Assembly: GCF_000737515.1 (NCBI RefSeq)
Contig: NZ_CP006587.1
Coordinates: 186,001 to 250,000 of the forward strand
Source: Hymenobacter sp. APR13
Lineage (GTDB): Bacteria; Bacteroidota; Bacteroidia; Cytophagales; Hymenobacteraceae
Length of the DNA stretch: 64,000 nucleotides
Reading direction: 5' to 3'
The notes below the pieces were generated by a model that made no database searches, was not told the origin of the DNA, and saw nothing but the letters and a program-made list of their open reading frames with translations. Positions 4,081 through 30,315 of the stretch are shown in pieces. Both the position numbers and the translations under genes were made by a program. How positions within the stretch are numbered: the stretch's first letter is position 1; each line of letters opens with the position of its first letter.

Positions 4081-4115
4081 CTGCAAATGGTTGATAGCAC
4101 AGGCTGAAGCCTAGG

Positions 4116-6809
4116 CTACAGCGCCGCTAGGCTTTGCTCCAGAGCGGTGATTTTGGCTTCGGTGTCGGCCAGCTTCTGCCGCTCGCGCTCCACCAGGTCG
4201 GGCTTGGCGTTGGCCACGAACTTCTCGTTGGCCAGCTTTTTCAGCACCGAGTCGCGGAAGCCCTGGGCGTACTCCAGCTCCTTGGTCAGGCGCTCCTTCT
4301 CGGCTCCGAGGTCAATCTGACCTTCCAGCGGCACGAAGAACTCCGCGCCGCCCGCCACGAAGCCCACCGAGGCAGCCGGCGCTTCCGTCACCACCGATAC
4401 TTCGGTGAGGGCGGCCAGCTTGCGGATGATGCCATCGTAGTCCGTGAGCAGCTGGGCATCGTCGGTTTTGGCGGCCAGGGTCAGGGGCTTGTTGGGGCCC
4501 AGGCCCTTCTGGTTGCGGATGGTGCGCACGCCGCCCACGATGGCCAGCGCCTTTTCCATGCGGGCCAGCACCTCGGCAGCACCCGCTACGGGCTGGGCCT
4601 TGGGCCAGGCGGCCACGCACACGTACTCCTTGGGGCCACGCTCCTGCAGCTCGTGCCAGATTTCCTCCGTTATGAAGGGCATGAACGGGTGCAGCAGCTT
4701 GAGCAGGGTTTCCAGGAAACCGGTGGTCAGGCGCAGCGTTTCGGGGTCGATGGGAGCCTGGTAGGCGGGCTTGATCATCTCCAGATACTCCGAGCAGAAG
4801 TCGTCCCAGACCAGTTTGTACACCGTCATCAGCGCGTCGCTCATCCGGAACTTCTCGAAATGCTCGTCCAGCTCGGCAATGGTGGCGTTCAGCTTGGCCG
4901 AGAACCACTCCACGGCCTTCTCGTTGGGGAAGGGCAGCGCGGCATCCACCTCCCAGCCCTGGGTGAGGCGGAAGGCGTTCCAGAGCTTGTTGCTGAAGTT
5001 GCGGCCCTGCTCCACCAGCTTTTCGTCGTAGAGCAAATCGTTGCCGGCCGGAGCCGAGAACAGCATGCCGGTCCGTACGCCATCGGCCCCGAACTGCTTG
5101 ATGAGGTCCAGCGGATCGGGCGAGTTGCCGAGCTGCTTGCTCATCTTGCGGCCCTGGGCGTCGCGCACGATGCCGGTGAGGTAGACGTTGCGGAAGGGCA
5201 CTTCCTTACGGTACTCCAGGCCGGCCATAATCATGCGGGCCACCCAGAAGAACAGGATGTCCGGCCCCGTCACCAGGTCGTTGGTGGGGTAGAAATAGTT
5301 GACGTCGGCATTGTCGGGGTCCTTGAACCCGTCGAACACCGAAATCGGCCACAGCCACGACGAAAACCATGTATCGAGTACGTCCTCGTCCTGGCGCAGG
5401 TCCGAGAGCTGCAGGTTCTGGTTGCCGCTTTGCTCCCGGGCTTGGATCAGGGCTTCCTCGGCGGTGAGGGCCACCACGTAGGTGCCGTCGGGCAGGTAGT
5501 AGGCCGGAATCTGCTGGCCCCACCACAGCTGCCGCGAAATGCACCAGTCGCGCACGTTCTCCATCCACACCCGGTAGGTGTTCTTGAACTTGGCCGGGTG
5601 CAGCTTCACGGTGTCATTTTCCACCACTTCCAAAGCCGGCTTGGCCAGGTGCTCCATTTTCAGGAACCACTGCATGCTCAAGCGGGGCTCAATGACGGCC
5701 TTGGTGCGCTCCGAGGTCTGCACGATGCTGGCGTACTCCTCCACCTTCACCAGGTGGCCGGCTTCCTCCAGGTCCTTTACGATGTTGCGGCGGGCGGCAA
5801 ACCGGTCCTGACCCACGTACAGCACGGCCTTTTCGTTGAGCGTGCCGTCGTTGTTGAGAATGTCGATAACGGGCAGGTTGTGCTTCACGCCCAGCTCGTA
5901 GTCGTTCAAATCGTGGGCCGGCGTCACCTTCAGCGCGCCCGTGCCGAAGTCGATGCTCACGTACTCGTCCAGAATCACCGGAATTTCGCGGCCCAGCAGC
6001 GGAATCCGCACTTTCGCGCCGTGCAGGTGCGTGTAGCGCGGGTCGTTGGGGTTCACCGCCACCGCCACGTCAGCCATGATGGTTTCGGGGCGCGACGTAG
6101 CTACGGTGAGCCACAAGCTGTCAGCTTCAAGCGGCAAGCTTTCGTTCTGATCCGAAGAAGAGCTTGCCGCTTGTGGCTGGAGGCTTGCAGCTACCACCTC
6201 ATACCGCAAATGATACATCTTGGCCATTACGTCCTTGGGAATCACTTCCTCGTCGGATAGGGCGGTCTGGCCCAGCGGGTCCCAGTTCACCATGCGGATG
6301 CCGCGGTACACGAGACCCTTCTGGTGCAGATCCACAAACACGCGCAAAACGGCTTCGGTCAGCTCGGGCTCCATCGTGAAGCGCGTCCGGTCCCAGTCGC
6401 AGGAGGCGCCCAGCTGCTTGAGCTGCTCCAGGATGATGCCGCCGTACTTTTCCTTCCAGGCAAAGGCGTGCTCCAGGAACTGCTCCCTAGTCAGGTCCTT
6501 CTTCTCGATGCCCTGCTCCTTCAGCAGCGCCACCACCTTGGCCTCGGTGGCAATGGAGGCGTGGTCGGTACCGGGCACCCAGCAGGCTTCCTTGCCCTGC
6601 ATGCGGGCGCGGCGCACCAGCACGTCCTGAATGGTATTGTTGAGCATGTGGCCCATGTGCAGCACGCCCGTCACGTTGGGCGGCGGAATCACTACGGTGT
6701 AGGGCTGCTTGCGGGGGTTGGCTTTGGCTTTGAAGAAGCCCTGCTCCTGCCAGCGCTGGTACCATTTGGCTTCAACGTCGGCGGGGGTATAGGTTTTGGC
6801 GATGGACAT
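4116..6809 (-). CDS. valS: Valyl-tRNA synthetase
   Basis: The enzyme charges tRNA-Val in the cytoplasm and edits mischarged Thr. The 897-residue protein shows the class I signature (PPNVTGVLHMGHM, a HIGH-type site), the KMSKS loop as GRKMSKQLGNS, the editing domain (SRPETIM), the anticodon-binding domain and a C-terminal coiled-coil arm. The start MSIAKTYTPADVEAKWYQ (6807-6809) is preferred because a -7 box lies just upstream at 6845-6852; the longer reading from 6857 would begin upstream of that promoter. An unusual Ser/Gln-rich insert at about residues 206-233, before the editing-domain motif, is encoded by a palindromic repeat. Confidence 0.97.
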   Translation of the reverse strand: MSIAKTYTPADVEAKWYQRWQEQGFFKAKANPRKQPYTVVIPPPNVTGVLHMGHMLNNTIQDVLVRRARMQGKEACWVPGTDHASIATEAKVVALLKEQGIEKKDLTREQFLEHAFAWKEKYGGIILEQLKQLGASCDWDRTRFTMEPELTEAVLRVFVDLHQKGLVYRGIRMVNWDPLGQTALSDEEVIPKDVMAKMYHLRYEVVAASLQPQAASSSSDQNESLPLEADSLWLTVATSRPETIMADVAVAVNPNDPRYTHLHGAKVRIPLLGREIPVILDEYVSIDFGTGALKVTPAHDLNDYELGVKHNLPVIDILNNDGTLNEKAVLYVGQDRFAARRNIVKDLEEAGHLVKVEEYASIVQTSERTKAVIEPRLSMQWFLKMEHLAKPALEVVENDTVKLHPAKFKNTYRVWMENVRDWCISRQLWWGQQIPAYYLPDGTYVVALTAEEALIQAREQSGNQNLQLSDLRQDEDVLDTWFSSWLWPISVFDGFKDPDNADVNYFYPTNDLVTGPDILFFWVARMIMAGLEYRKEVPFRNVYLTGIVRDAQGRKMSKQLGNSPDPLDLIKQFGADGVRTGMLFSAPAGNDLLYDEKLVEQGRNFSNKLWNAFRLTQGWEVDAALPFPNEKAVEWFSAKLNATIAELDEHFEKFRMSDALMTVYKLVWDDFCSEYLEMIKPAYQAPIDPETLRLTTGFLETLLKLLHPFMPFITEEIWHELQERGPKEYVCVAAWPKAQPVAGAAEVLARMEKALAIVGGVRTIRNQKGLGPNKPLTLAAKTDDAQLLTDYDGIIRKLAALTEVSVVTEAPAASVGFVAGGAEFFVPLEGQIDLGAEKERLTKELEYAQGFRDSVLKKLANEKFVANAKPDLVERERQKLADTEAKITALEQSLAAL
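6112..6195. repeat. Palindromic repeat inside valS
   Basis: CAAGCGGCAAGCT (6128-6140) and AGCTTGCCGCTTG (6161-6173) are perfect inverted arms, flanked by further AGCTT/GGCTTGCAGCT-like units. The element is read in frame, adding low-complexity residues (ASLQPQAASSSSDQN...) to the synthetase. Confidence 0.75.
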
Positions 6810-6852: not shown

Positions 6853-7058
6853 GGCATTTCGGGCCGGCCATAGGTGGGTGTAGCGCGGGTTGGGCTTGCG
6901 GCCGGCTGTTCCCATTATGAAACTAACGCCTCCGCTACATTCATCAGCCCGCATATTTCGCGTAAATTGCGGCCGACAAATGAAGTATGTTAAGGTTTAA
7001 TCGAGGCAGGAATTATTATATTAGGTTCTGACTTTCACCTTCCAAGCATCATTTCAGT

Positions 7059-8003
7059 ATGGCAGCTCTGCTTAAATTTCTAAAAGGCACTGTCGCCGCC
7101 AAAACAGTGCCTTCAGCACCAGCCGCCCCGCCGGCGGCCGCAGCGGCCTTCTCGTCCGGTACGCTCCGGGTCGGAATGGGACAGCTGCTGGTAGAAGGCG
7201 GTGAGCCCGACCGCAACCTCGAACGGGCCGCCCAGATGATTGCCGAGGCCGCCCGCCAGAACTGCGACGTAGTACTGCTGCCCGAAACCCTCGATTTCGC
7301 CTGGACGCACCCCAGCGCCCTCACCGAGGCCCAGCCCATCCCCGGCATCTACTCCGACCGGCTCTGCCAGGAAGCGCTGCGCCACCAGGTGTACGTGTGC
7401 GCGGGCCTGACCGAGCGCGGCGCCGACGGCCGCATCTACAACGCCGCCCTCCTCATCAACCCCCAGGGAGAAATCATCAGCAAATACCACAAAATCAACC
7501 TGCTCACCGTGGAGATGCCCTACTACGCCGTGGGCCAGACGCTGAACGTGGTAGATACGCCCCTGGGAAAAATCGGCATCAACATCTGCGCCGACAACTT
7601 CCTCGACGGCCTTAGCATCGGGCACACCCTGGCCCGCATGGGCGCCGAGTTCATCCTCTCCCCTTCGTCCTGGACGGTGGACTACTCCATCACGGAGGAA
7701 GACGACCCCTACCACGAGAAATGGGTGAAGCCGTACTCCATCCTGGCCCGGCTCTACAACGTCACGGTGGTGGGCACTACGTCGGTGGGCTACATCGTGG
7801 GGGGGCCCTACGAGGGCAAGAAAAGCGTGGGCTGCTCGCTGGCCGTCGATGCCAGCGGCATCCGGGCCCAGGGCAAGTTCAACGAGTTTGCCGGCGACCT
7901 GGTAGTAGCCGACCTGCCCCGCCCGGTGCGCGCCGAGAAAGGCACCCAGATCGGCGAGATGCTGCTGCGCAAAGGTTTCCGCTTCGATACGCTACCTGCG
8001 TAA
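7059..8003 (+). CDS. Nitrilase-fold carbon-nitrogen hydrolase, probable amidase/glutaminase
   Basis: This 314-residue protein has the Glu-Lys-Cys triad of the nitrilase superfamily: E76 in LLPETLDF, K145 in KYHKINL and C177 in NICADN. The first 35 residues are Ala/Pro-rich and precede the catalytic fold, which begins at LRVGMGQLLVEGG. No signal peptide is evident, so it is probably cytoplasmic. The substrate cannot be read from sequence. It stands 77 bases upstream of, and co-directional with, an ATP-dependent N-acetyl sugar amidotransferase. I therefore infer, without proof, that it may release ammonia from glutamine or another amide for that enzyme, as the nitrilase domain of glutamine-dependent NAD synthetase does. 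Confidence 0.85.
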   Translation: MAALLKFLKGTVAAKTVPSAPAAPPAAAAAFSSGTLRVGMGQLLVEGGEPDRNLERAAQMIAEAARQNCDVVLLPETLDFAWTHPSALTEAQPIPGIYSDRLCQEALRHQVYVCAGLTERGADGRIYNAALLINPQGEIISKYHKINLLTVEMPYYAVGQTLNVVDTPLGKIGINICADNFLDGLSIGHTLARMGAEFILSPSSWTVDYSITEEDDPYHEKWVKPYSILARLYNVTVVGTTSVGYIVGGPYEGKKSVGCSLAVDASGIRAQGKFNEFAGDLVVADLPRPVRAEKGTQIGEMLLRKGFRFDTLPA

Positions 8004-8080: not shown

Positions 8081-9244
8081 ATGACCCAACATTACCAACA
8101 GTGCCGCCGCTGCATCATGGACACCACCGTTCCCGGTATCCGGTTCGACAGTCAGGGCACCTGCAATTTTTGTGCTGTCCATGACCAGATGGACAAGGAC
8201 TTTCCCTTAGGCGAAGCCGGCCGGTTGAAGGTTCAGGAACTCGCCAACGACATCAAGACGCTCGGCAAAAACCAGAAATACGACTGCGTGCTGGGCGTGA
8301 GCGGCGGCCGCGACTCATCGTTCACCTTATGGTACTGCGTCGTGAAGCTGGGGCTGCGGCCGTTGGCGGTACACTTCAACGACGGCTTCGGCAACCCCGT
8401 GGCCGGCGAGAACATGACCAAGGCCTGCCGCAAGCTGGGCGTGGAGATGCGCACCATCACCTCCGACTGGCGCGAATCCAAAGACCTGAAAATCGCCTTC
8501 CTAAAGGCCTCCGTGCCCGATATGGAGGAAGGCACCGACGTGGGCATTGCCACGGCCCTCTACGGCGTGGCGGCCAAGGAAGGCATTCAGCGCATCATCA
8601 TCGGGCAGTCATTTCGGACCGAAGGCATTGCGCCGCTGAGCTGGAACTACCTCGACGGCAAGTACCTGAAAGCCGTGCATAAGCAGTTCGGCACGGTGCC
8701 GCTGCGGCCCTGGAAGGCAGATGACCCGGGTTTCAATCTGGGCATCAAGGAAATGTTCTACTACGCCTTCATCCGGCGCATCAAAACCGTCACGCTGCTC
8801 TACCACGTCGATTACGTGCGGGCCGACGTGGACAAGCTGCTGGAGCAGGAGCTGGACTGGGTGAACCCCGGCGCCCACTACTTCGACGACCTCTACCAGA
8901 GCGTCATCTACTACCTCAACCGCACCAAGTTCAACATCGACCGGCGGCTGTTCAACTACTCGGCCTTGGTGCGCTCCGGCCAGATGCCGCGCGAGGTGGC
9001 CCTGGAACGGGTCGGCCACGTCAACAAGATCGAAGACGAGAAGGTCATCAACCTGTGCATCAAGCGCCTGGGCCTGACGCGAGAGGAGTTCGAGCAGATT
9101 GTAGCCACGCCCGCCAAGACCTTCCACGACTACCCCAATAACTACGCCCTCATCCGGCAGCTGCGCTGGCCCATCAAAGTGCTCAGCCGCCTGAACCTGA
9201 TTCCAGAGTCGGCCTACGACAAGTATTTCAACTGCGGCACCTAA
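8081..9244 (+). CDS. N-acetyl sugar amidotransferase (WbpG/PseA-like)
   Basis: The 387-residue protein carries an N-terminal zinc-finger-like pair, C8xxC11 and C28xxC31, then the PP-loop ATPase motif SGGRDSS at 74-80. This order is typical of the N-acetyl sugar amidotransferase family (WbpG, PseA, LegA type), which adenylates a sugar and replaces an acetamido oxygen to form an acetamidino group in surface glycans. WbpG partners normally receive ammonia from HisH/HisF-like proteins; none is nearby, but a nitrilase-fold hydrolase precedes it. No other glycan genes flank it. Its TAA stop (9242-9244) is the first triplet of a palindromic repeat. Confidence 0.85.
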   Translation: MTQHYQQCRRCIMDTTVPGIRFDSQGTCNFCAVHDQMDKDFPLGEAGRLKVQELANDIKTLGKNQKYDCVLGVSGGRDSSFTLWYCVVKLGLRPLAVHFNDGFGNPVAGENMTKACRKLGVEMRTITSDWRESKDLKIAFLKASVPDMEEGTDVGIATALYGVAAKEGIQRIIIGQSFRTEGIAPLSWNYLDGKYLKAVHKQFGTVPLRPWKADDPGFNLGIKEMFYYAFIRRIKTVTLLYHVDYVRADVDKLLEQELDWVNPGAHYFDDLYQSVIYYLNRTKFNIDRRLFNYSALVRSGQMPREVALERVGHVNKIEDEKVINLCIKRLGLTREEFEQIVATPAKTFHDYPNNYALIRQLRWPIKVLSRLNLIPESAYDKYFNCGT

Positions 9245-9433
9245 TCACGGATTTTTCGGATTAGCCGGATTAGTCGGATTTTGTAGTCGATTCACGTTCA
9301 GCTACACAACAAGAAAGGCTTGCCAATCGGCAAGCCTTTCTTGTTGTGTACTAAAGCGGAGTAAAGTTTACGGCAGTTTAGCGCCGTCCACAAAATCCGA
9401 CTAATCCGACTAATCCGGAAAAATCCGTGATTA
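9242..9433. repeat. TAATCACGGATT palindromic element, copy 1
   Basis: About 190 bp with near-perfect inverted ends built from CGGATTAG units: TAATCACGGATTTTTCGGAT at the left and its near-complement at the right. The centre holds a separate hairpin. Its first and last triplets are the stop codons of the two convergent genes it separates. Confidence 0.9.
9304..9349. terminator. Bidirectional hairpin inside repeat copy 1
   Basis: A perfect 21-bp stem (9304-9324 with 9329-9349) contains AAGAAAGGCTTGCC and a four-base loop. It sits between convergent genes and would serve as a terminator in both directions. Confidence 0.75.
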
Positions 9434-9775
9434 GCTGTGCAGCCACTCTTTTTTGGCGGTCAGCTTCTCCTGCGACTCGCGGTAGTCGGGGTCGTCTACG
9501 CAGCAGTCGACGGGGCATACGGCGGCGCACTGGGGCTCCTCGTGGAAGCCCACGCACTCGGTGCACTTGTCCGAGACGATGTAGTAGTACTCGTCGGAAA
9601 TCGGGGTTTGCGGGGCCACGCCCGATACAGTCTGGCCGCCGTCAACGGTTACTTCCTTCAGCGTCGTGCCATCCGACCAGCGCCAAGCGGCGCCGCCTTC
9701 GTAGATGGCCGTATTGGGGCATTCCGGTTCGCAGGCACCACAGTTGATGCACTCGTCGGTTATCATGATGGCCAT
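9431..9775 (-). CDS. 4Fe-4S dicluster ferredoxin
   Basis: This 114-residue protein starts at the ATG at 9773-9775 (MAIMITDECINCG). It has two cluster motifs: CINCGACEPECP near the N-terminus and CTECVGFHEEPQCAAVCPVDC near residue 70-90, with the longer CX8C spacing typical of this ferredoxin type. It should carry electrons in the cytoplasm. A -7 box at 9852-9859 supports the start and rules out a longer reading from a TTG at 9928. It is divergent from the acyl-CoA reductase gene, an arrangement I recall from other Bacteroidota. Its stop codon lies in the palindromic repeat. Confidence 0.93.
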   Translation of the reverse strand: MAIMITDECINCGACEPECPNTAIYEGGAAWRWSDGTTLKEVTVDGGQTVSGVAPQTPISDEYYYIVSDKCTECVGFHEEPQCAAVCPVDCCVDDPDYRESQEKLTAKKEWLHS

Positions 9776-9851
9776 AGCCTTCGAATCAGTTAAGTGAGCA
9801 GTCTGAACTAGAATACGCAGAAACAAACCAAACGGCAGTTTCTGCGGCACG

Positions 9852-9859
9852 CAAAAGTA
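9852..9859 (-). promoter_or_regulatory. -7 box of the ferredoxin gene
   Basis: The minus strand reads TACTTTTG. Initiation near 9845 would give a leader of about 70 nt. Confidence 0.55.
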
Positions 9860-9985
9860 GAAACTAACTGGAAGCCGTGCGAGTTTTTTGCGGCTGACGG
9901 CTGCGAAATACCGAATTTGCAGCCCCAACCGCCAACTACCGGCGGCCTAACAAGGCCGCAGCGCGCCACTTTGTTTCCTTCCGCT

Positions 9986-10999
9986 ATGCACCACCCCGAC
10001 CGTCTTGCTGCTTTTGTGGCCCTGGGCCACTTCCTGCGTACCCTTTCTGCCGATGAGCTGGCCCACCTGGCGGCCCGGGCCCGCAACCAGAATGCCTGGT
10101 TCGACGCCCCCAACGTGACGGCCGCCATCCAGGGCATTGCCGCGCTGCTGGAAGAGAAGCCGCTCCGGCACTGGGCCGCCCGCTACCCGGCCGAGCCCGC
10201 CACGCCCCGGCAGGTGGGCGTGGTGATGGCCGGCAATATTCCGCTGGTGGGTTTCCACGACGCGCTGTGTGTGCTGCTCAGCGGCCACACGCTGCTGGCC
10301 AAGCTCAGCAAAGACGACACCGTGCTCATGACCTGGATCCTAACGGAGCTGCAGCGGCTGGAGCCGCGCTTCGCCGCGCAGATTGTGTTGGCCGAGCGCC
10401 TCAACGCCGCCGACGCCTACATTGCCACCGGCTCCGACAACACGGCCCGCTACTTTGATTTCTATTTTGGCAGGAAGCCGCACATCATCCGGCGCAACCG
10501 CACCAGCCTGGCCGTGCTTACGGGCCGCGAGGAGCCGCACGACCTGGGCCTGCTGGGCGAAGACATCTTCCGGTACTACGGCCTGGGCTGCCGCAACGTG
10601 AGCAAGCTCTACGTGCCGCAGGGCTACGATTTCACCCCGCTTCTGGACTCGTTGCAGCCCTGGCACCACGTGCCGGACCATCATAAATACCAAAATAATT
10701 ACGACTACAACAAAAGCATTCTGCTCGTAAATCGGGTGCCTCACCTGGACACCGGCTTCCTGCTGCTCACCGAGAATGCGCCGCTGGTTTCGCCTATTTC
10801 GGTGCTGCATTACAGCTTCTATACCAACGAAATAGACCTGGTTGACCAGCTGACCGACGTGGCCGCCCAGACCCAGTGCATCGTCTCGGCCAGGGGGCAT
10901 TGGGCGGGCAGCTTTCCGTTCGGGCGGGCCCAGTCGCCGGCCGTTACAGATTATGCCGATGGGGTAGACACTATGGCCTTTTTGGCAGAATTGGCGTAA
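9986..10999 (+). CDS. Acyl-CoA reductase, LuxC-like
   Basis: The 337-residue protein begins at the ATG MHHPDRLAAF; the reading frame is open further upstream but that part overlaps the divergent promoter. It resembles the LuxC acyl-CoA reductase family (PF05893), with VVMAGNIPLVGFHD near residue 80, DDTVLMTW and a conserved GCRNVSKLYVP around the presumed thioester Cys. LuxC reduces acyl chains to aldehydes with NADPH; in non-luminous Bacteroidota the substrate is unknown. A LuxE-type partner occurs 22 kb away in this window. The divergent ferredoxin gene suggests a link to redox metabolism. Confidence 0.85.
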   Translation: MHHPDRLAAFVALGHFLRTLSADELAHLAARARNQNAWFDAPNVTAAIQGIAALLEEKPLRHWAARYPAEPATPRQVGVVMAGNIPLVGFHDALCVLLSGHTLLAKLSKDDTVLMTWILTELQRLEPRFAAQIVLAERLNAADAYIATGSDNTARYFDFYFGRKPHIIRRNRTSLAVLTGREEPHDLGLLGEDIFRYYGLGCRNVSKLYVPQGYDFTPLLDSLQPWHHVPDHHKYQNNYDYNKSILLVNRVPHLDTGFLLLTENAPLVSPISVLHYSFYTNEIDLVDQLTDVAAQTQCIVSARGHWAGSFPFGRAQSPAVTDYADGVDTMAFLAELA

Positions 11000-11140
11000 A
11001 ATTAGCTACTTGAGTTGACCAGGATGGCGGTAGCGGCAAGCAGGCCCGATAAGGCAGGGCCAGTTCATGGTCGCTTCATGCAGCCGCCATCTATTTCCGG
11101 TTCTCTTTGGTTTCACTTTGCCTGTTTAGCCCCTACTACC

Positions 11141-11446
11141 ATGTCGCCCGACCTCCCTGTTGCCACTGCCGAAGTAATCGACAAAGACCTGATTCCCAGC
11201 CTGCATTTTGCGGCTGAAGATGTGCTGTCTGATCCGGCCGCCATCAAGCACCGCCGCCACGATGCCGAGCGCGCCACCAGCCTCGGCAACAACTACCAAG
11301 GCAAGCTGGATATCTACTTTCAAACGGCTGATGGCGCCGTGAAACGCGTGTATACCACCATTTGGGCCACTCACCAGGACTACCTGACCCTCAAATCCGG
11401 CATCACGCTGCCCATCCACGCCGTGCTGGGATTCGACTTCTATTAA
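11141..11446 (+). CDS. Small conserved protein of unknown function
   Basis: I do not recognise this 101-residue protein. The start MSPDLPVATAEVIDKD is chosen over a longer reading from 11015 because the upstream part is low in plausible coding character. It has no signal peptide or membrane segment. The C-terminal half (GKLDIYFQTADGAVKRVYTTIWATHQDYL...LPIHAVLGFDFY) looks beta-rich. Its TAA stop at 11444-11446 begins the second copy of the TAATCACGG repeat. The 140-base spacer upstream holds nothing evident. Confidence 0.7.
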   Translation: MSPDLPVATAEVIDKDLIPSLHFAAEDVLSDPAAIKHRRHDAERATSLGNNYQGKLDIYFQTADGAVKRVYTTIWATHQDYLTLKSGITLPIHAVLGFDFY

Positions 11447-11667
11447 TCACGGATTTAAGCGGATTAGACGGATTAGTCGGATTTTGTGGACGATTGAAGT
11501 TCACTTAAAGCAAAAGAGGCTTGCCAACTGGCAAGCCTCTTTTGCTTAATGGACCAAGTGCCTGCATATAGCACCGTCCACGAAATCCGATTAATCCGGC
11601 TAATCCGCTTAAATCCGTGATCAACAGAATCCGATTAATCCGGCTAATCCGTTTAAATCCGTGATTA
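11444..11667. repeat. TAATCACGGATT palindromic element, copy 2 with a duplicated right end
   Basis: The same architecture as 9242-9433: inverted ends TAATCACGGATTTAAGCGGA and complement, central hairpin, flanking convergent genes. The right terminal unit occurs twice (about 11578-11622 and 11626-11667), so the element looks partly duplicated. Both flanking stop codons lie at its ends. Confidence 0.88.
11508..11547. terminator. Bidirectional hairpin inside repeat copy 2
   Basis: AAGCAAAAGAGGCTTGCC (11508-11525) pairs perfectly with 11530-11547. It is homologous to the hairpin of copy 1 (shared GGCTTGCCAA...GGCAAGCC core), and the outer stem differs with base-pair compensation. Confidence 0.75.
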
Positions 11668-12537
11668 CAATCTGTCCAGGGTTTTCTGGATCAAGTCGCC
11701 GATAACCTGCTCGGAGTTGGTGGCAAACTCGCCGGTGGCGCGGTTGGCCACAATGGCGTTCAGCGACACCACTTCGTGGCCCAGCAGGCGGCCCAAGGCG
11801 TAGTAGCCGGCCGTTTCCATCTCGAAGTTGGTGAGGCGGAACTCGCCTTCGGCGCTTTCGTGGCGGAAGTTCTGGAACTGCTCAATCAGGTTAGGAATGC
11901 GCAGATCGAGGCGCAGCACGCGGCCTTGCGGGCCGTAGAAGCCGGGGCAGGTGAGCGTATTGCCGACCACCATACCAGCGCCCAGCTGCTCGCGCAGCAG
12001 GTCGTTGCCGCGCACGCAGTACGGGCGGTAGTCGAGGCCCAGGGCCTGCTGCACGCCAGCGCCGACGGCCACTTCCAGCCCGGTTTCCACCAATGGGTAG
12101 AACTGCATCAGTGAGTCGAGGCCCACGGCGTGCTCCGAAACCAGGTGCGAGCCAATTGGAATATCGGCCTGCAGGGCGCCGCTGGTGCCCACACGCACAA
12201 TGCGCAGCGCAATGCGCTCCTCCAGCGGCCGTGGTTCCCGGGTCACGAAGTCGATATTGACCAGCGCATCCAGCTCGTTGAGTAGGATGTCGATGTTGTC
12301 GGTGCCCATGCCGGTGCTGATGACGGCCAGCCGCTTGCCCTTGTAGTAGCCCACATGGGTTACAAACTCGCGCTTGCTGATGATGGTCTCAATCGAGTCG
12401 AAGTGCTGGCTGACCATCGGCACCCGCTCCGGGTCGCCCACCGTAATGATGGTGTCGGCAATGTGGTCGGGCTGCAGGTTGAGATGGTAGATGCTGCCGT
12501 CTTTATTGAAAATCAGCTCGGAATCGGGAATGGGCAT
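11665..12537 (-). CDS. Nucleoside phosphorylase, uridine phosphorylase-like
   Basis: This 290-residue cytoplasmic enzyme belongs to the PNP/UDP family, which splits nucleosides with phosphate to base and ribose-1-phosphate. Visible hallmarks are TVGDPERVP (phosphate-binding loop near residue 33), STGMGTDNID near 75, VRVGTSGALQADIP near 112 and LTNFEMETAGYYALG near 230, where Glu-Met-Glu contacts ribose. It is the length typical for the family. Base specificity cannot be decided; uridine is the family default. Its TAA stop lies in the palindromic repeat. It is separated from trhO upstream by a terminator, so it is probably monocistronic. Confidence 0.88.
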   Translation of the reverse strand: MPIPDSELIFNKDGSIYHLNLQPDHIADTIITVGDPERVPMVSQHFDSIETIISKREFVTHVGYYKGKRLAVISTGMGTDNIDILLNELDALVNIDFVTREPRPLEERIALRIVRVGTSGALQADIPIGSHLVSEHAVGLDSLMQFYPLVETGLEVAVGAGVQQALGLDYRPYCVRGNDLLREQLGAGMVVGNTLTCPGFYGPQGRVLRLDLRIPNLIEQFQNFRHESAEGEFRLTNFEMETAGYYALGRLLGHEVVSLNAIVANRATGEFATNSEQVIGDLIQKTLDRL

Positions 12538-29071: not shown

Positions 29072-29813
29072 AGCCCCGTAGGGGCGGCATATTGGTAGAA
29101 ATAGTACGTAATTCCGCTGCTTAAGCCCCGGAGGGGCGACACCTTTCCCGCGCCTCATGGCCAATACCTACACGCAGATTCACCTTCACCTTGTGTTTGC
29201 CGTGCGGGGCCGGGCCTGCCTGATACCTGCAGACCGGGCTGAAACGCTTTACCGCTATATCACCGGCATCGTAACGAATCAGGGCCAGAAGCTACTCGCC
29301 ATCAATGGTATGCCCGACCACCTGCACTTGTTGATTGGGTTACGGCCGGAAAAGGCACTTTCGGATCTGGTTCGTGATATGAAAGCCAACTCCGCCAAGT
29401 TCATTAATGAGCAACGCTGGCTGAAAACGAAATTTGCGTGGCAGGAAGGTTTTGGTGCGTTTTCCTACAGCGCCTCTCAACTACCAGATGTAATCCGGTA
29501 CATTCAGCGTCAGCAGGAACACCATGCAAAACGCACATTCGCTGAAGAATACCAGTTGTTGCTCGAACGATTTGGCGTGGAGTACAACGCGAACTATGTA
29601 TTTGAGTCTGTAATGCCAGACGAGCCGCAAGGGCCTAGTGCCTCCTGAAGATTTCGAAGCTTTCAACCCCGAAGGGGCGGTATGTAGGTAGCCAATAGAC
29701 CATTCCATAACGCCAGAACCCCAGCGGGGCGGCACAGATAAGGTGCCGCCCCGCTGGGGCTTTGGGATTATCAGCGAACCTGTTTTCTACCAATATGCCG
29801 CCCCTCCGGGGCT
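29072..29813. mobile_element. REP-associated transposase unit (REPtron) with flanking REP hairpins
   Basis: A Y1 transposase gene is bracketed by five hairpin REPs of the pattern GCCCCnnAGGGGCGGCATATTGGTAG: 29072-29104, 29124-29143, 29665-29698, 29719-29759 (a hairpin pair) and an inverted copy at 29787-29813. The outermost two are in opposite orientation. This is the organisation known for RAYT loci. Confidence 0.85.
29157..29648 (+). CDS. REP-associated tyrosine transposase (IS200/IS605-like, Y1 HUH)
   Basis: This 163-residue protein has the single-strand transposase signature: the HUH pair H55-L-H57 in DHLHLLIG, and a catalytic tyrosine at Y115 in VIRYIQRQ, with Q119 four residues later as in IS200 TnpA. 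It contains GFGAFSYSASQLPDVIRYIQ, typical of the domesticated RAYT branch. The gene is visibly less GC-rich than its neighbours. Surrounding REP hairpins are the expected substrates. All catalytic residues are intact, so it may still be active. Confidence 0.92.
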   Translation: MANTYTQIHLHLVFAVRGRACLIPADRAETLYRYITGIVTNQGQKLLAINGMPDHLHLLIGLRPEKALSDLVRDMKANSAKFINEQRWLKTKFAWQEGFGAFSYSASQLPDVIRYIQRQQEHHAKRTFAEEYQLLLERFGVEYNANYVFESVMPDEPQGPSAS

Positions 29814-29850: not shown

Positions 29851-29858
29851 CCCTCAGT

Positions 29859-30304
29859 GATGAGTCGCTCCACCGCGGCGCCGCAAGGCGACGAGGAAAG
29901 TCCGGGCAACACAGAGCACCCTGCTTCCTAACGGGAAGGACCGGGAAGTGTAACGCAACCCGGGACAGCCAGTGCCACAGAAAATAACCGCCCGATGGCG
30001 GATGAGCGGAATGGCGGATTGGTGGAGTAAAATCCATCACGCCACCAACCCACTACTCCACCATCGGGTAAGGGTGAAAAGGTGCGGTAAGAGCGCACCA
30101 GCGGCTGGGTGACCAGTCCGGCTGGGTAAACCTCAGGGGTTGAAAGACCAAATAAGCTGGCACGCGTCCTGCGCGGACGTACCGGGCGGCTCGTCCGGGG
30201 CCAGCGGGTAGGTTGATGGAGCCTTTCCGCGAGGACTGGCCTAGATAAATGGTGGAGGCGCGGCCTTTCGGGGCAGCGTACAAAACCCGGCTTACAGACT
30301 CATC
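29859..30304 (+). ncRNA. rnpB: RNase P RNA, class A, with enlarged P12
   Basis: The RNA subunit that trims the 5' ends of tRNA precursors. Conserved blocks appear in the right order: GAGGAAAGTCCGGGC (about 29891), CACAGAAAATAACCGCC (about 29975), GGGTAAGGGTGAAAAGGTGCGGTAAGAGCGCACC (30066 on, split across helices P8-P10), CCAAATAAGCTGG-type P15/16 region, CTAGATAAATGG near 30241, and ACAAAACCCGGCTTACAGACT at the 3' end. P1 forms from GATGAGTC (29859-29866) and GACTCATC (30297-30304). The length, 446 nt, exceeds typical class A RNAs because P12 (29991-30068) holds a repeat-like insertion. Confidence 0.95.
29991..30068. repeat. Repeat-derived P12 arm of RNase P RNA
   Basis: CCCGATGG (29991-29998) and CCATCGGG (30061-30068) close a 78-nt arm. 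The interior (GGATTGGTGGAGTAAAATCC, then CACGCCACCAACCCACTACT) resembles the GTGGAGTGGTGGGTTGATGG arms at 20907-21086. Confidence 0.65.
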
Positions 30305-30315
30305 ACCACGGCTTT

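Follow-up and report, generated by a model that had tools for sequence, protein, structure and literature searches.

Palindromic elements that end in the stop codons of convergent genes in Hymenobacter sp. APR13 are probable non-autonomous members of a repeat family linked to GxxExxY nuclease genes

Two palindromic elements lie between pairs of convergent genes in a 64,000-nucleotide stretch of the Hymenobacter sp. APR13 genome (hereafter the window; C1:186001-250000 of the 5.0-Mb genome G000), and each of them ends on both sides in the stop codon of the adjacent gene. These palindromes probably belong, as non-autonomous members, to a family of mobile repeats in which the full-length element carries a gene for a GxxExxY nuclease, and they are similar in kind to miniature inverted-repeat transposable elements (MITEs) or to REPINs, the hairpin-forming doublets of repetitive extragenic palindromic (REP) sequences. 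Their membership in a repeat family linked to GxxExxY genes is well supported. The flanking genes and the parts of both elements are arranged as follows:

8081..9244, + strand: gene for an amidotransferase-like protein (name from the original prediction), no Pfam match; its stop is the TAA of copy 1
9242-9433: copy 1, the whole palindromic element between the amidotransferase-like and ferredoxin genes
9242..9289, + strand: left arm of copy 1, consisting of the TAA stop, TCACGGATT, three more CGGATT units with a 9-bp period, and TTGTAGTCG
9303..9350, no strand: central hairpin of copy 1, a perfect 22-bp stem with a 4-nt loop and the core GGCTTGCC/GGCAAGCC; folding z -9.9
9385..9433, - strand: right arm of copy 1, inverted, terminating in the ferredoxin stop codon
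9431..9775, - strand: 4Fe-4S ferredoxin gene (PF12838, PF00037), stop at 9431-9433
11141..11446, + strand: gene for a hypothetical protein, no Pfam match, stop at 11444-11446
11444-11667: copy 2, the whole palindromic element between the hypothetical protein and phosphorylase genes
11444..11492, + strand: left arm of copy 2, its TAA being the stop of the hypothetical protein gene
11508..11547, no strand: central hairpin of copy 2, a perfect 19-bp stem; folding z -8.7
11575..11623, - strand: inner right arm of copy 2, the first of two tandem right ends; end on the + strand CGTGATCA
11621..11667, - strand: outer right arm of copy 2, its TAA being the phosphorylase stop
11665..12537, - strand: nucleoside phosphorylase gene (PF01048), its stop being the TAA of copy 2

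The original prediction had placed two copies with inverted ends at 9242-9433 and 11444-11667 and had read the terminal TAA as the stop codon of all flanking genes; we confirmed both points, the latter for 4/4 genes. The end sequence TAATCACGGATT is found at 9242 and 11444 on the + strand and at 9422-9433 and 11656-11667 on the - strand, with a further match at 11612-11623 (-) that has 1 mismatch, and these 5 matches with at most 1 mismatch compare with 0.08 in shuffled sequences. Within each copy the arms are 88-89% complementary and thus form terminal inverted repeats, as in a MITE. Copy 2 has two right ends in tandem (11569-11621 and 11613-11665), as had also been noted, and the same doubling is present in the sister genome G002, which supports the claim that ends can double. 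The central stems of the two copies are both perfect and have different sequences, and among 25 distinct core hairpins from this genome and its relatives most outer base pairs vary with pairing kept. Perfect stems alone were retained, so that pairing was a precondition of this count. Two single arms that were tested did not fold alone (z -0.7).

The arms are dispersed over the genome, in which TAATCACGGATT occurs 20 times (1 for the reversed control) and a looser arm pattern 117 times (2 in the control). Arms were read from 48 genome stretches fetched among the matches listed of these 117; four weak places lie outside the fetched stretches (near C1:1336255, 1637295, 1705944, and 3227198). The common build is TCACGGATT followed by CGGATT units at 9-bp intervals (frequently 10 bp for the first interval), often together with TTGTGGACG or TTGTAGTCG, and a sister pattern with CAGATT in place of CGGATT is also present. 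Arms occur singly or as inverted pairs, many of the pairs enclosing a hairpin with the core GGCTTGCC, and the outer arm end usually lies 0-3 nt past a stop codon. The 48 stretches contain 55 strict arms, 35 of which adjoin the stop codon of an open reading frame (ORF) of at least 300 nt, when 0.61 would be expected from sliding the arm through the same surroundings. The genome-wide count that the original prediction had proposed as a check therefore puts the ends at stops far beyond chance. Four of the 55 arms adjoin an ATG (0.76 expected), and 16 adjoin neither a stop nor an ATG. Five of these 16 adjoin CAAAG[CG]TA, a promoter-like sequence that is the reverse of the Bacteroidota -7 box (consensus TAnnTTTG). 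The others comprise two arms shifted by the finder that are truly at stops (L082, L089 minus strand), one shifted by the finder that is not at a stop (L056), the inner one of the doubled right arms of copy 2, and 7 that are unexplained; all 16 were kept in the count of 55. In general, then, arm ends coincide with the borders of functional sequence, most often with stops.

The link to GxxExxY appears at the copy-1 site itself. In the 29 loci that were readable at this site (from the own genome and 28 relatives), arms are present behind the amidotransferase stop in 8 (the own genome and 7 relatives), with several different sequences, one of them of the CAGAT type (L103). Two relatives (L119, L121; G089, G041) have an arm, a GxxExxY gene, and an inverted arm at this site, the arms being ~600 bp apart around a 128-aa protein that matches PF13366. 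The L119 protein, which was the one tested, also matches TIGR04256 (GxxExxY). The GxxExxY protein has the catalytic D, E, and K and the fold features of a PD-(D/E)XK nuclease, and its nuclease activity is predicted; no sequence match to solved structures was found at E up to 1, and we know of no role assigned to GxxExxY proteins. A survey of distant arm pairs, made on the stretches other than L001-L050 and those of G002 (L328-L367), showed that convergent arms 420-2000 bp apart enclose a GxxExxY gene in 10/10 cases. Four of these pairs are in loci fetched as PF13366 matches and 6 in loci fetched otherwise, although among the latter L119 and L121 represent one site in two species and L383 is at a junction that was chosen because G043 carries the element there. 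The full-length form of the family therefore consists of inverted periodic arms enclosing GxxExxY, and the window copies are without the gene.

Looking from the gene outwards gave a similar picture. Flanking inverted repeats exceeded the 99% level of mismatched flanks in 25 of 57 GxxExxY genes, compared with 2 of 60 control loci (two other genes from the same genus; 3 of 60 GxxExxY genes were without a flank, leaving 57). The ends of these 25 elements adjoin a stop or an ATG in 33/50 cases, with 3.4 expected. The arm types around GxxExxY genes are CGGATT, CAGATG, CGCAGTGT, CAGAGG, CAGGATT, and CACATAG, some of them below the cut-off. A search by DNA pattern brought in 117 stretches with arms, and 8 of them contain GxxExxY, against an expectation of ~0.3 that is rough, as the GxxExxY density was taken from other taxa. 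Among 25 genomes of the same genus, the 6 without a strict arm have no intact PF13366 gene (0/6), whereas 13 of the 19 arm-bearing genomes do (P 0.005, kinship ignored). GxxExxY proteins are present in 74/148 genomes sampled from the phylum. The CGGATT array is most likely the site at which the nuclease binds.

To compare the parts of the arm, we aligned G000 with its sister G002. Hexamers differ at 36/1000 positions (3.6%) and spacers at 99/428 (23%), and the flanking 54 nt, which are mostly coding ends, at 165/2306. The alignment covered 43 of the 59 arms whose loci are represented in the stretches fetched from G002; of the others, 12 could be aligned in the flank and not in the arm, and 4 were below score. 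Choosing hexamers by consensus introduces a bias, but even with this taken into account the hexamers appear to be held and the spacers to vary almost freely. Within an element, one arm agrees with the other: in the 15 of 25 pairs with equal layout, the spacers agree at 127/152 positions (one right arm, in L057, belongs to two pairs), whereas arms re-paired across elements have a mean agreement of 0.445, which never exceeded 0.78 in 5000 shuffles. The second spacer at L085, for example, is AAA/AAA in the G000 arms and AGA/AGA in the G002 arms. Because the two single arms tested do not fold and spacers match, copying or pairing between arms is favoured.

Conserved hexamers, strong hairpins (z -9.9 and -8.7), stems that vary yet stay paired, and a location behind stop codons are also what one would expect if the host had made these structures as bidirectional terminators, with arms and hairpin being immobile 3'-end structures selected between convergent genes. 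We regard this as very unlikely, since arms also border start codons and -7 boxes, the same arms are found around GxxExxY genes, and sister species have unrelated occupants at the same site (L089, L090, L060). Moreover, a consensus terminator scan of 9000-12000 gave no match; the T-tract of the central hairpin sits inside the stem, paired with the A-tract. Of the earlier proposal that the element brings its own bidirectional terminator, the strong hairpin in a terminator-like position stands, and the consensus match is missing. An Rfam search of the window returned RNase P RNA as its sole match.

It had also been proposed that the element targets or creates stops. At the copy-1 site, the amidotransferase-like protein ends in NCG[TSD] directly before the stop in 25/25 readable loci among L101-L127 (own included; L120, L124, and L128-L134 were outside this reading), and 17 of these loci have no arm. 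Armless relatives keep the C-terminus and the stop, and we therefore rejected the element as the maker of the amidotransferase stop. Some of them (e.g., L108, L111, L112, L117, and L122) have ~100-200 bp between the convergent genes, judged by eye, which are missing where the element sits. Other sites agree better with the proposal. In G002, an arm four codons inside a gene end gives a new stop, changing the C-terminus from EKHNGF (G000) to EKDHGLARI (G002); in G089, the ferredoxin terminates within the arm with WLHKITD, versus WLHS in G000; and at L089, the G000 protein ends inside the element with FNHFDH and the G002 protein with FNHFE.

The junction before a gene that we take to encode a DNA polymerase subunit has both empty and filled forms in related species. 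Among 30 loci, the two genes overlap by ATGA in 4 and have adjacent stop and start codons in 3, while in G043, G048, and G067 an arm starts at the stop of the upstream gene and GxxExxY lies inside. Filled and empty loci, where compared, share one upstream protein, which is 82-96% identical to that of G043. It ends in EKAKS, EKAKA, EKANA, or EKTKVV at empty junctions and in RNDV, EKV, or ENI at filled ones, indicating that the element contributes the TGA together with the residue before it, at the cost of 2-3 codons. The sequence reads ...TCATGACC... in G019 and ...GTC TGA ACCGCGG ... CCGCGGTTCAG ATGACC in G043. Depending on where the ends are placed, a putative target-site duplication would amount to 0-1 bp or to TGA, alongside the loss of 2-3 upstream codons.

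Insertion between overlapping genes would also suit a free-standing homing nuclease. GxxExxY would then reside between genes and be copied through recombination of the conserved flanking genes, the palindromes being remnants of gene loss and not jumping units. The different arm types found at one site (8/29 readable copy-1 loci, own included) and the replacement of entire intergenic stretches, with borders at the coding ends, fit this scenario too. Nevertheless, we think it unlikely, because the 55 strict arms at unrelated sites of one genome, many with the core hairpin GGCTTGCC, need copying to new places.

Several points weigh against membership in a mobile family. No movement of an element has been observed. 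Selecting hexamers that fit the consensus makes them look less diverged than they are; layouts differ in 10/25 arm pairs, which have no spacer score; and 32/57 GxxExxY genes are below the inverted-repeat cut-off. When 30 GxxExxY genes were sampled phylum-wide, the score of the first sample was passed by 1 (score 56; 1/288 mismatched flanks), and lower scores were reached by 11 (>=30; 9/288 mismatched) and 6 (>=40; 1/288 mismatched). In a sample of many taxa, which takes in at least 2 Hymenobacter records (L184, L236), only 4 of 126 arms from 117 stretches adjoin a stop (0.96 expected) and 1 adjoins an ATG (2.09 expected), and we rejected stop-adjoining as a general property of the repeat. In 24 of these 126 arms, the terminus is GTCTGAA or GTCAGAA (or one A fewer) ahead of TCAC. 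Finally, the model cannot explain why the ends fit so exactly against the borders of coding sequence, start codons, and -7 boxes at places where several armless relatives have 100-200 bp of spacer (by eye), and the CGGATT arms of G000 are without a matching resident nuclease because its two GxxExxY genes have arms of other types (CAGAGG and CAGATG by eye, with inverted-repeat scores of 25 and 24, below the cut-off). In L308 (G000 C1:632400-636800), the left flank of GxxExxY seems by eye to supply the last residues and the stop of a gene that we take to be rhodanese-like, and the right end (CTGTGAT) the GTG start of a presumably SbcD-like gene.

A further difficulty is that 6/19 arm-bearing genomes have no intact GxxExxY gene, and in G000 arms without GxxExxY far outnumber arms with it. 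Some other enzyme, such as a Y1 transposase of the REP-associated tyrosine transposase (RAYT) kind, might accordingly move the arms, with GxxExxY as a passenger, and two Y1_Tnp genes are present in the genome, one of them within the window. We find this improbable, as arms of several different sequences all enclose GxxExxY and no CGGATT arms were seen in the sequence read next to either Y1_Tnp gene; on the latter ground, RAYT was rejected as the arm partner. The RAYT-like Y1_Tnp gene of the window (29157-29648) has CCCCGGAGGGGCG-type palindromes on both sides and lies shortly before the RNase P RNA (29857-30310), and the second (L100 1190-2030, near G000 C1 1062183) is flanked by GTAGAGACGCAATATTTTGCGTCTC palindromes.

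Returning to a mobile family with a GxxExxY-encoding full-length form, we infer that the GxxExxY protein moves the arms, and the following role of the nuclease and cause of the end position are suggested. The nuclease would cut or nick DNA, and a copy of the element, with or without the nuclease gene, would enter a gene junction through repair. Such insertions would be kept where the flanking genes remain intact, possibly helped by termini carrying stop codons (TGA/TAA/TAG). In the short form, the hairpin between the arms may stop transcription from both convergent genes, and the host may tolerate the short element for this reason. The likeness of the arms could be maintained if the hairpin were copied through, or else by gene conversion.

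The family resembles the REPIN/REP and RAYT system in being short, palindromic, dispersed, intergenic, mostly behind genes, and provided with a partner gene flanked by the same ends. It differs in its ~50-nt arms with CGGATT arrays of 9-bp period and in its proposed partner, which is a PD-(D/E)XK protein and not an HUH (Y1) transposase. The terminal GTAG/CGTC tag of REPINs was not found, the termini being TAATCACGG, TGATCACGG, and similar, and GTAG is confined to the inner end of some arms (TTGTAGTCG), where it alternates with TTGTGGACG. Likewise, in the surrounding sequence that was read, the repeats of this family flank neither of the two Y1_Tnp genes. MITEs are non-autonomous elements with terminal inverted repeats and a full-length form that carries a gene, and the window elements share the terminal inverted repeats and the gene-bearing full-length form. 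Unlike MITEs, they have variable spacers that are common to the two arms of an element and not to other copies, and the protein proposed as their partner is no known transposase. Homing endonuclease genes of the free-standing kind are small nuclease genes located between the stop and start of their neighbours; here, by contrast, there are long inverted arrays and many gene-less copies. The small GxxExxY protein can be likened to Cas4/RecB-like PD-(D/E)XK nucleases (such as the Cas4 protein SSO0001), from which it differs as a stand-alone protein of 128 aa. According to a passage of PMC3733652, the termini of GTAG REPs often supply a TAG stop to flanking ORFs, so that the stop-codon idea has a printed precedent in another repeat family. 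In the search listings and one passage of PMC8934634, no treatment of GxxExxY, PDDEXK_3, or one form of the repeat sequence as a mobile system was found, and the term 'PDDEXK_3' did not appear; the PMC8934634 passage does not present GxxExxY as belonging to a mobile repeat.

More broadly, and as a tentative extension, GxxExxY proteins might be responsible for moving a superfamily of mobile DNA that has yet to be described, whose ends would be family-specific, short-period, hexamer-like arrays (CGGATT, CAGATG, CAGAG, CAGGATT, CACATAG) and whose insertion in Hymenobacter would occur exactly at translation boundaries, with the ends serving as replacement stops. The CRGATT arm type is present in many bacterial phyla. 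GxxExxY is common, and a link to a dispersed palindromic repeat, if true, would give a function to both. It would also add a second type of nuclease to the idea of REP and transposase, and account for a class of repeats with short periods that occur between genes across many phyla. In addition, it makes testable how an element comes to sit exactly at gene ends.

Palindromes of other kinds were seen at related sites. Between L089 (1890-2130) and L343, the whole intergenic stretch is swapped, with a CGGATT palindrome in G000 and a GTCATCCTGAGCG-type palindrome in G002; the breakpoints are at the coding ends, and the flanking genes are 93-95% identical between the two genomes. Palindromes of other families (GTCATCCTGAGCGCAGCG and GTCATTGCGAGGAGGCACGACG types) are located at the copy-2 convergent gene end in other species (L153, L157, L159). 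L341 (G002, ~6870-7590) contains a GIY-YIG gene (PF01541) between CGTCATGCAGAGC-type palindromes and is orthologous to the region of L090 near 4084-4248, where G000 has a CGGATT palindrome. The GIY-YIG protein may be a candidate partner.

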